Shown here in pieces: positions 7,405-48,392 of a DNA stretch of 64,000 bases; the first letter of the stretch is position 1; each line of letters opens with the position of its first letter. A program made the position numbers and the translations under genes. The notes below the pieces were generated by a model, which saw only the letters and a program-made list of their open reading frames with translations, had not been told where the DNA came from and made no database searches. The stretch is taken from positions 558,001 through 622,000 of the forward strand of contig NZ_AP025628.1 in assembly GCF_025999835.1 (NCBI RefSeq), written 5' to 3'. The DNA is from Caldinitratiruptor microaerophilus. GTDB taxonomy: Bacteria; Bacillota; Sulfobacillia; Symbiobacteriales; ZC4RG38.

Positions 7405-7534
7405 GGCCCCGGCACGGATCCCCGGGGGCGATGGTGCCCCGGGGCCGTCCGGCCCTGCGGAGCGGGCCGGCAGCCGGGGCCGTGGCGCTGCCGCCGTTCC
7501 CGGTGGCCCGGGACGTGTGCCGTTCTGCGGTGCA

Positions 7535-7791
7535 TGACGGTGTTCCGCCGGGTGGCCCGACAGGCAATCGGTGCGCGTCGAGAGGCGAGGTTGTGTAGCA
7601 CCGATTGCCTGACCACCCCCGTCCGCCCCGCCGGGAGCGCCGGCCAGGGGCGTGAGGTCGACCGGAATCGATCCTTATGTCGACAACTCCGGGCCACCAA
7701 CTCTCCGACCGGGCCGTCATGTCAAGTGCAGTCCGCCGGTGAGGCAAGAAATGCGACTCTACGGTCCCGGTCAACTGTCACCGATTGCCTC
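7535..7791 (+). repeat. Structured intergenic element, copy 1 (E1)
   Basis: First of three related non-coding elements (others at 23224-23479 and 48145-48392). In order: block TGACGGTGTTCCG (7535-7547), preceded by GTTCTGCGG; a perfect 14-bp hairpin CAGGCAATCGGTGC (7561-7574) / GCACCGATTGCCTG (7598-7611), with flanking GGTGG/CCACC able to extend it; the loop carries GTTGTGT (7590-7596) near the 3' arm; GGTCGACC (7656-7663), exactly 10 nt, then CTTATGTCGA (7674-7683); and a 51-nt terminal block (7741-7791) bounded by GAGGCAA / TTGCCTC. The region looks clearly less GC-rich than the genes around it. No reading frame here is convincing. Function is unknown. Confidence 0.8.
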
Positions 7792-8277
7792 TCTGAGGGA
7801 ATATTTCCCAGATACAACACCCAGAGCCATGTACGCCAGTTGGAGGGTGCTGGCCGTGTGCAGCAGGTCCCGTGGCAGACGGTGCCGGTCCCCGCGTCTG
7901 GCGGGCGGCGGTGACCGCGGGAGCCGTGGACCACGTGGCAACGCCGAGGTGCCGGAAGCGGGTATAGAGGCGTTTCACACGGACGGACGGCCCAGCGAAC
8001 GGGAGACTCTGGACGCGCGCCCGCCGCTGTGGCAATCTGAGAGGTGTACGCCGCCGAGATTTGCACTTCTTCGGGGTGGCATATCGGGGAGCCGCTTGCT
8101 ATACTGTGTATGAGTAATTCGCATGAACCTTATTCCGCCTGAGAATCCGCAGGTTTTCTGCGCGCCAGTTCGTGAGAGTTGTAACAAAATAGGCGGTCGC
8201 TTCCAGTTCCGTGCTCCCGGGCCCTCGAAGCGGGCCCTTCCCGTTGATCCCCGCCCACCCAAAGGAGGCCACCTGCC
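7792..8277 (+). other. Long leader of the nuo operon, no gene seen
   Basis: About 490 nt between element E1 and nuoA. I see no convincing gene: the open frames have poor codon use and no ribosome binding sites. It holds the likely nuo promoter (8077-8105) and, near the 3' end, a small hairpin GGGCCC / GGGCCC (8219-8237) followed by AAAGGAGG, the nuoA Shine-Dalgarno. The stretch 8040-8200 is unusually AT-rich for this genome. Confidence 0.5.
8077..8105 (+). promoter_or_regulatory. Probable sigma-A-type promoter of the nuo operon
   Basis: An extended -10, TGCTATACT (8097-8105), lies in an AT-rich patch; a weak -35 candidate TGGCAT (8077-8082) is 17 nt upstream. It is the best promoter-like sequence in the nuo leader and would leave a leader of about 165 nt. 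Confidence 0.5.
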
Positions 8278-22107: not shown

Positions 22108-23157
22108 CTACGCCCCGGCTGCCTTGCGGATATACCGCTGGCTGACGGCGGTCAGGTACCGGACCACCGGGTCCTCCCTCCGCACCTCCCTCAGCGGAAG
22201 GAAGCCCTCCAGCCGGGCGCGCACGCCTTCGAACGTGAGATCCTGCGGTCGGACCACGACGATCGTCACCCCGTGGTCGCGGGCGAGGGCGTGCTTGACG
22301 AGGTCTCGCAGCTGCTGGGTCCGCACCTGCTCCGGGTCGGGGAAGGCGCCGGTGGTCTGGTAGTGCTGGGGTCCGTTGAACTCGATGGCCACGCCGTGCT
22401 TGTAGTACCAGCGGTCGAACTCCAGCCGCTCTCCCGTGAGCGGGTTGACAAGGAATCCCGGGCGGGCGTTGTCCTGGAACTGATCGGTGGCCACCAGGAC
22501 GTTCAGCAACTCCTTCAGGATGGCTTCGCCGATGTATCTCTCCCGCTCGAGCCGCAGCCTGACCCGCTCGAGTTCGGCCTCCCGGGCGGCCCGGTGCGGG
22601 TCGAGGACCACGTAGGTGTTGGTGTGCGGTCCGTGGCCAGGGTAGACCCGCAACCAGCCCGCCGCCTGCAGACTTCTGGCGTGCAGGCGAAGCGTGGTCG
22701 GGCTGTCGACCGCAGTCCACCGCATGACCGTGGGCACGGCCTCGCTGCAGGCTCGTGTGCGCGGGTCGGAGTGGATGAGCAGGGCGACGTAGAGGCACCT
22801 GGCCGTGGGCGAGAGCGTCGGATGCGTGGCGAGGCTGGCCGGCACCGCACGGGTGTGGGCGGCCGACAGGGGGCCGCTGGGGGTGCGCAGTTCGTACGTG
22901 GCCGCCTGCCGCCCGCGGCGCTTCTGGACGAGCACCCAGCCCGCCCTTTCCAGTGCTGCGGCATGTGCCGGGATCGGGTTCGGGCTGCGAAGTCCGCACA
23001 GTCCGGCCAGTTCACGGCAGGTCGCGCGGGCCTGCCATGCACCGGGGCTGCCTCGCGTCAGGAGTGCCATGTACAGGCACCGCGACGCATGGGTGAGCGC
23101 CGGGTCCTCCAGGATCGCCACGGGAACCGGTACGGTCCACCACAGGTTCCCCTGCAC
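22108..23157 (-). CDS. Double winged-helix protein with a PD-(D/E)XK-like nuclease C-terminus
   Basis: A 349-residue protein that I cannot name. It holds two tandem copies of a winged-helix-like module: residues about 15-80 (LTHASRCLYMALL ... ALERAGWVLVQKR) and about 110-175 (LSPTARCLYVALL ... SLQAAGWLRVYP). Both copies keep a-x-R-C-L-Y-x-A-L-L. A charged helix follows (about 190-215), then a nuclease-like part with EFDRWYYKHGVAIEFNGPQHY and ITIVVVRP-like strand (VTIVVVRPQDL), as in Vsr- or DUF559-like folds; the usual Lys of the motif is not evident. GTG start. It converges on the MoaB-like gene, and element E2 lies directly upstream on the same strand. Confidence 0.7.
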   Translation of the reverse strand: MQGNLWWTVPVPVAILEDPALTHASRCLYMALLTRGSPGAWQARATCRELAGLCGLRSPNPIPAHAAALERAGWVLVQKRRGRQAATYELRTPSGPLSAAHTRAVPASLATHPTLSPTARCLYVALLIHSDPRTRACSEAVPTVMRWTAVDSPTTLRLHARSLQAAGWLRVYPGHGPHTNTYVVLDPHRAAREAELERVRLRLERERYIGEAILKELLNVLVATDQFQDNARPGFLVNPLTGERLEFDRWYYKHGVAIEFNGPQHYQTTGAFPDPEQVRTQQLRDLVKHALARDHGVTIVVVRPQDLTFEGVRARLEGFLPLREVRREDPVVRYLTAVSQRYIRKAAGA

Positions 23158-23223: not shown

Positions 23224-23479
23224 GAGTCAGCTAACGAGAGTCGAGTGCGACCGTAGAGTCACACTTTCTGACTCGCTGCCGGATACGAAGTTACATAACC
23301 CCACTGGCAGGGACGTGGTGATCCCACGAGGTCGACGTAAGACCTGTTCCGGGTCGACTCCTGGCCCTCTGCAACGACTCCGACGGCTTGTACGGTGGCA
23401 ATGAGTCAGTTCGTGGGACACAACGCCACCGCCCGACTCACACAAACTGACCCATGGACTGTCACTCGGAACACCGTCA
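23224..23479 (-). repeat. Structured intergenic element, copy 2 (E2)
   Basis: Read on the minus strand, with the same order and spacing as E1: TGACGGTGTTCCG beginning at 23479, preceded by GGGACGTCTGCGGTTCC; a hairpin GGGTCAGTTTGTG (23453-23441) / CACGAACTGACTC (23415-23403) whose two non-Watson-Crick pairs are both G-U when read as minus-strand RNA; GTTGTGT in the loop (23424-23418); AGTCGACC (23359-23352), exactly 10 nt, CTTACGTCGA (23341-23332); and a 51-nt terminal block (23274-23224) bounded by GAGTCAG / CTGACTC. It lies 67 nt upstream of the winged-helix/nuclease gene, same strand. Not coding by appearance. Confidence 0.8.
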
Positions 23480-23653
23480 CGCACTGCGGAACCGCAGACG
23501 TCCCACGGTACCATGGGCGACAGTATCGCCCCTCCGCCGCCGGCCCCCCGCCGGCGTGACGGCGGCGGGCGTGCAATCCCCCGGAGAGCGGCGGCAGGGC
23601 GGCCGACCAGGTGACGGTCCGGCCGCGCCCCGCCCTCCGGGCCCGCCACGCGC

Positions 23654-48084: not shown

Positions 48085-48144
48085 CGCGGCCCGCGCCGCC
48101 GGGGCCGAGCCGGTGCTTTTGGAGGCGCAGGGTTCCGCCCGGCG

Positions 48145-48392
48145 TGACGGCGTTCTGCCATTTGGGTGATGAGACAATCGGTGTGGGGTCAAGCATCTGC
48201 GTTGTGTGGCACCGATTGTCTCACCACCCCTTCGCGCCGTCCGGCATGCCGGAACAGCAAGTCTCCGGTCGACCACAAACCGATGTTATGTCAAACCGAA
48301 ACCGCCCCGGACACCCGACCGGCCACCTGCTGGGGCCCGGTGAGGCAATCCGTGACACACAACCGGTTTCGTTGACTCGCACATCTTGACTC
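48145..48392 (+). repeat. Structured intergenic element, copy 3 (E3)
   Basis: Same plan as E1 and E2: TGACGGCGTTCTG (48145-48157), preceded by GGTTCCGCCC; hairpin GAGACAATCGGTG (48171-48183) / CACCGATTGTCTC (48210-48222), perfect over 13 bp and extendable by GGGTG/CACCC with one mismatch; GTTGTGT (48201-48207); GGTCGACC (48267-48274), exactly 10 nt, GTTATGTCAA (48285-48294); 51-nt terminal block (48342-48392) bounded by GAGGCAA / TTGACTC, one mismatch in seven. It lies 60 nt after the EIIC remnant and 171 nt before yhaO. The rest of the interval 48085-48563 holds no gene that I can support. Confidence 0.8.

Follow-up and report, generated by a model that had tools for sequence, protein, structure and literature searches.

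Phased Four-Arm Palindromes and a Linked Gene for a Predicted Winged-Helix Nuclease in Caldinitratiruptor microaerophilus

Palindromic elements in the window and in the genome

The genome of the hot-spring bacterium Caldinitratiruptor microaerophilus is a single contig of 3,599,694 bp. The window (the whole stretch of 64,000 nucleotides analyzed here) covers its positions 558001-622000 and contains three copies of a palindromic element, E1, E2, and E3. Only E2 carries a gene, which starts 66 nt past its second palindrome. The features are as follows, in window coordinates.

7522..7549, + strand: E1 5' box (GTTCTGC..GTGACGGTGTTCC-like), from alignment; common to E2, E3, and other copies
7561..7611, + strand: E1 palindrome P1 (arms A and B), 51 nt
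7657..7684, + strand: E1 core, GTCGACCGGAA-N7-TTATGTCGAC
7741..7791, + strand: E1 palindrome P2 (arms C and D), 51 nt
7792..7810, + strand: E1 3' box, GAGGG-N8-CCA, with the spacing fixed in type I copies
7858..7894, + strand: probable vestige of the nuclease gene start in E1, with 27 of 37 nt matching E2 at an equal offset (66 nt after P2)
23467..23492, - strand: E2 5' box, from alignment
23403..23453, - strand: E2 palindrome P1
23331..23358, - strand: E2 core, with the TTACGTCGAC half at 23340-23331
23224..23274, - strand: E2 palindrome P2
23205..23223, - strand: E2 3' box, CAGGG-N8-CCA
22108..23157, - strand: E2-linked gene, 349 aa, with a predicted tandem winged helix (8-184) and a predicted Vsr/EDxHD-like nuclease (207-322)
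48131..48159, + strand: E3 5' box, from alignment
48171..48222, + strand: E3 palindrome P1, 52 nt
48268..48295, + strand: E3 core, with the TTATGTCAAA half at 48286-48295
48342..48392, + strand: E3 palindrome P2
48393..48411, + strand: E3 3' box, GAGGG-N8-CCA

The layout of the element is thus 5' box, P1, core (ACCGGAA-N6..8-TTATGTCGAC), and P2, to which type I copies (described below) add the 3' box GAGGG-N8-CCA. Each palindrome is imperfect, and the two surround the core. In E1, the right half of the core starts 63 bp past P1, and the core ends 56 bp short of P2. The longest copies (E1, 7692-7740; E2, 23280-23330; and L105) have a second half-site, TTATGT-like, that lies between the core and P2. 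The window also has long direct repeats of 82-87% identity (53551-53833/61143-61425 and 60980-61118/63510-63648), which are probably paralogous genes.

About 23 dispersed elements of this family are found in the genome. Besides DNA and motif searches, a covariance model built from 11 copies of the 3' block (R1) served to locate further copies. R1 recovered E1-E3 as well as additional copies and gave 67 matches at E<=10, the strongest with an E-value of 6.8e-26; weaker matches were read only where two palindromes were visible or where they lay inside regions already retrieved. The 22 elements read have 43 palindromes, of which 41 are exactly 51 nt long; the exceptions are P1 of E3 (52 nt) and the palindrome of L108 (53 nt). 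L128, at 1351 kb, is an additional, truncated copy. Three arm types exist: type I (GAGGCAA-NNN-RTG-CGAGTC, 12 copies), type II (ACGCAAA-NN-TTGACAGGC, 10 copies), and type III (GTGCACTTC-GGAACCGC, one copy, L128). No element mixes arms of different types, and the mean identity between types is 9.8/20. By a crude gene call, the copies are mostly intergenic. For the statistics below, L108, which has a single full palindrome, is excluded from spacing, L121, in which the core is inverted, is excluded from phase, and L128 is described only; the core of L106 was assigned by hand. Another candidate, L124, was dropped from the family, as it resembles coding sequence.

Read by eye, the orientation of the 5' box is opposite in type I and type II (L114-L123), and L114 seems to carry both orientations as one longer palindrome. 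L121 (1280.3 kb) and L122 (1842.0 kb) are sister type II elements in which the core is inverted relative to P1 and P2, which suggests inversion or exchange between palindromes. Their 3' flanks have GCTCTTCCCTGACGTTTACA in common. No target-site duplication was found at the elements. A Xer/dif role of the core was also considered; the pattern of a usual dif consensus has one match in the genome, with three mismatches.

The original prediction was that four matching arms per element allow two exclusive folds and that all four change together between copies. In E1 the match is exact: GGCAATCGGTG at 7563-7573 is complementary both to CACCGATTGCC at 7599-7609 and to the identical CACCGATTGCC at 7779-7789, and GAGGCAA is found at 7741-7747. 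In E2, GTCAG/CTGAC is likewise present in all four arms (minus strand). The agreement expected for E3 is partial (GAGACAA, GAGACAA, GAGGCAA, and GAGTCAA), i.e., the rule is broken at one position. Across the family, the outer 7 nt of type I arms have a mean within-element identity of 5.83/7 compared with 5.27 ± 0.08 when slots are permuted (0/5000 permutations), and the agreement across P1-P2 with E2 excluded is reached in 27/5000. For the full 20 nt of type I, the counts are 31/5000 with E2 and 876/5000 without it; the 20-nt agreement stems from E2 alone. Type II arms have no within-element agreement (3392/5000). Therefore, joint change of the arms holds between types I, II, and III and for the outermost part of type I arms, but neither for whole arms nor inside type II. 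Palindrome ends that do not follow the hairpin arms, which had been named as evidence against the idea, do occur in part, in E3 and in type II.

The linked gene and its relatives

Besides E2, the downstream gene is carried by a type II element (L114) and, truncated, by L128, where the last 175 matched residues remain. The L114 protein is 58% identical to the E2 protein overall; identity is higher in the nuclease part (70%) than in the winged-helix part (46%). In E1, 27 of 37 nt are identical to the gene start at an equal offset (p about 2e-8 with the register fixed; by local alignment score, the match is not above shuffles). E1 is therefore most likely a derivative in which the gene was lost. 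No palindromes were found beyond the far side of the gene at E2, where R1 matches lie upstream only, and the same is the case at L114.

The whole 349-aa protein (P0001) is unrecognized by Pfam, NCBIfam, and PADLOC. It was modeled by AlphaFold from 38 sequences (pLDDT 92). Plain Foldseek against the PDB gave no match at E <= 0.001. With a second structural aligner, residues 3-189 match pi with iteron DNA (2nra_C, Z 10.9, 3.6 A over 183 residues) and RepE (1rep_C, Z 10.3), and residues 207-322 match Vsr (1cw0, Z 10.2, 2.8 A over 105) and I-Bth0305I (3r3p, Z 10.0, 2.7 A over 94). The predicted model thus has a tandem winged-helix DNA-binding fold of RepE/pi type followed by an EDxHD/Vsr-like catalytic fold. 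Weak profile matches in PHROGs agree, pointing to homing endonuclease and replication initiation families; the L114 protein (P0002) matches phrog_270, replication initiation protein E, at 1.9e-8. Pfam scans of the protein, made with family profiles, found no GIY-YIG family. D248 and E259, in the nuclease part, are invariant.

Of 154 genomes surveyed in the class, 36 contain relatives of the gene. The other two genomes of its own family have neither a gene relative nor an R1 match. Among 41 genomes searched with R1, 14 have a match at E<=0.1, including C. microaerophilus itself, and the best match among the other 13 is 2.4e-4. A survey for tandem arrays covered 84 gene loci in other genomes, in sets of 29 and 55, and found them at 27; the remaining 57 have none by these criteria. 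The arrays are denser at gene loci (32 in 251 kb) than in control DNA (5 in 400 kb; p = 2.5e-9), and four of the five control arrays lie in one stretch. In that stretch (L306, G004:C7:60001-80000), the four have periods of 47, 66, 182, and 193 and lie inside 14 kb.

The inverted arms are private to each locus, and private arms of other kinds occur in related genomes. At 14 of 87 loci (the 84 and the three of C. microaerophilus), a 12-mer occurs upstream in both orientations at least four times, compared with at most three in shuffles (six each); E2 and L114 themselves miss this strict test. In G003 (3,566,135 bp), CGCGCAGAATCT occurs 16 times with a period of 75 and CGAGGCGGAATG 12 times with a period of 86. 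The CGAGGCGGAATG unit recurs in several other arrays of this genome that are gene-less, as judged from positions. Reading by eye of arrays from the relatives did not reveal the constant core. At 11 loci with hand-picked arms, arm similarity correlates with similarity of the N-terminal part (r = 0.49, 11/5000) and less with that of the nuclease (r = 0.27, 216/5000); in this modest correlation, the arms track the winged-helix part more than the nuclease. A CRISPR or guide-RNA array was considered and rejected, because the spacers are not unique; in ten arrays they are near-identical from unit to unit. G003 also has, by appearance, one group II intron-type repeat at more than 20 dispersed places (L218-L222).

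Helical phasing and competing explanations

The distances between the core and the palindromes fall into steps. In 20 elements, the core-to-P2 distances are 24-25, 35, 46, 56, and 68 bp and the P1-to-core distances are 41, 61-63, and 73-75 bp. Residuals from 10.5-bp steps range from -0.9 to +1.1 bp for core-P2 and from -2.0 to +1.5 bp for P1-core. Since the copies are of common descent and their phase counts are not independent, length classes were tested as single points. A Monte Carlo test of the eight length classes, treated as independent, gave p = 0.0003. The inverted and shifted core of L121 (57/42) is consistent with three turns. Array periods at the gene loci of other genomes also fit 10.5 bp best (R = 0.63, n = 32, 0/2000; R = 0.55, 30/2000 with unique periods only). 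The five control arrays, a very small set, look periodic themselves (R = 0.91, 132/2000), at a different phase.

Two readings of the four arms had been offered at the outset, a conformational switch in RNA and four binding sites of one DNA-binding protein. That the element acts as an RNA with two exclusive folds is very improbable, though several observations speak for it. Both alternative pairings are present in E1 and both folds can be drawn; long-range A-D pairs are included in the minimum free energy (MFE) structure of 15 of 21 whole elements; folding of the E1 plus strand is more stable than that of shuffles (z -2.73); and mismatches in type I palindromes favor G.T over A.C (53:29, p = 0.011). 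(Energies of forced A-D folds were left out, as they are sometimes below the MFE.) However, the E1 minus strand gives a still more stable fold (z -4.02), and nothing favors a transcript. The ratio of G.T to A.C is 73:59 of 903 positions in the 43 palindromes (75:60 of 924, p = 0.23, with the L108 palindrome counted twice) and 22:31 in type II. Watson-Crick pairs are in slight excess, 578 compared with 562.7 ± 8.8 for arms taken from different copies (97/2000), and covariation in P2 is scarcely above shuffles. None of 4227 Rfam families matches in the window at gathering threshold. Helical phasing is meaningless for RNA. The 10.5-bp steps do not fit an RNA switch but suit proteins lined up along a single face of the DNA duplex. 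The same steps, the lack of a clear difference between G.T and A.C, and the linked RepE/pi-like module with its nuclease support the other reading, four sites that one DNA-binding protein would occupy.

Among explanations in which the arms are protein sites, interference directed at origins is unlikely. In such a scheme, the protein would use a borrowed initiator module to cut the iterons of rival replicons, and the elements would be relics of integrated replicons or autoregulatory operators. The phage protein Odn has the same domain logic, a RepA-like part with a nuclease and, reportedly, cutting that depends on iterons (PMC8263062); the predicted fold matches to pi and RepE and the start of the E2 gene directly after P2 would suit this as well. 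Against it, the arms adjoin the nuclease's own gene and some 20 gene-less chromosomal places, searches of 50,697 phage records and 72,556 plasmid records found no full-length relative, and viral contigs gave only 14 matches, all weak and to the nuclease domain. It is quite unlikely that the elements are operators of host proteins or chromosome-organizing sites beside which the nuclease is incidental. The mostly intergenic position of the copies (by the crude gene call) is what this would predict, and the arm types could belong to paralogous regulators, but arrays are found beside the gene repeatedly in the class, with a density ten times that of the control, and the arms vary with the N-terminal part of the linked protein. 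The least probable, with hardly any likelihood, is a single-stranded hairpin element moved by a Y1 (HUH) transposase, i.e., a derivative of REP/RAYT or IS200/IS605. Its paired inverted palindromes, dispersal, and linkage to a gene resemble REPs and RAYTs (PMC2817692). However, PF01797 has no match in this genome, while the same search finds matches in five of 14 control genomes, and the phasing argues for double-stranded sites.

A proposed phased DNA site with its own nuclease, and known systems

The reading that we consider probable is that the element is an assembly site on double-stranded DNA, bound by the chimeric nuclease linked to it, and that the elements form a selfish, REP/BIME-like family spread by this nuclease. 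The copies, palindromes, core, phasing, gene linkage, and arrays are observed at the sequence level and the folds come from a predicted model; from them we infer that this protein binds the arms, that it cleaves DNA, perhaps at the core, and that the elements spread through the repair of breaks. The two inverted arms of about 20 bp in each 51-bp palindrome would be half-sites for a dimer of a tandem winged-helix protein of RepE/pi type, and the helical face of the core would be constant relative to both palindromes. Copies with a gene, in the window E2, would encode the cognate protein immediately downstream. Dimers on one helical face could present the nuclease to the constant core, or to a different target, where nicks or breaks would lead to copying of the element. 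Arms and winged-helix part may diverge jointly into specificities I, II, and III, with less change in the core and the nuclease domain. The gene-less E1 and E3 would be dispersed derivatives. Given such gene-less dispersed copies and the arrays beside the gene in relatives, selfish behavior like that of REP/BIME families is the most likely.

It is conceivable, at somewhat less than even chances, that this is an undescribed class of selfish element: an initiator-like winged-helix module joined to a Vsr/EDxHD nuclease, with phased four-arm palindromes of its own, gene-less copies and arrays, co-diverging specificity, and a core that is perhaps cut. In the open-access literature searched, no description of this palindrome-nuclease system was found. 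If the explanation is right, repeat families like REP/BIME can arise through a nuclease that has no relation to RAYT transposases, and a homing-type nuclease of chromosomes has acquired iteron recognition of initiator type. The arms and winged helices that pair naturally, with private specificities in one genome, would form a ready series for studying the evolution of DNA recognition. The 10.5-bp rule offers a direct test.

Like REP/BIME sequences with RAYTs, the elements are dispersed intergenic palindromes in alternating orientation, with tandem arrays and lineage-specific families, and the linked gene co-diverges with the palindromes (a modest correlation at 11 loci). Unlike in that system, the enzyme is not a Y1 HUH transposase, the sites are phased double-stranded 51-bp palindromes with a constant core, and the gene is not flanked on both sides. 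The iteron initiators pi of R6K and RepE of mini-F share the tandem winged-helix fold (predicted here) and repeated sites; in C. microaerophilus, however, the protein carries a predicted nuclease, the sites are inverted palindromes, and the genome report lists no plasmids (PMC9933637). The EDxHD homing endonuclease I-Bth0305I is similar in the fold of the nuclease domain (again predicted here). According to a review, it recognizes a very long target as a dimer, nearly 60 bp (PMC3943268), and such a length suits the 51-bp palindrome. Here, in contrast, no group I intron was seen, the nuclease is fused to a Rep-like part, and it is linked to dispersed copies of its site. Odn of phage ICP1 also joins a DNA-binding part of replication-initiator type to a nuclease and has repeated semi-palindromic sites, as the candidate binding sites here would be. 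Its parts seem to differ: Odn, which is phage-encoded and cuts the origin of a rival, has a RepA_N part and a nuclease of GIY-YIG type, whereas the protein described here combines a predicted tandem winged helix of RepE/pi fold with a predicted Vsr/EDxHD-like nuclease, is chromosomal, and has its own sites beside its gene. Odn is the nearest example of the logic of this protein.
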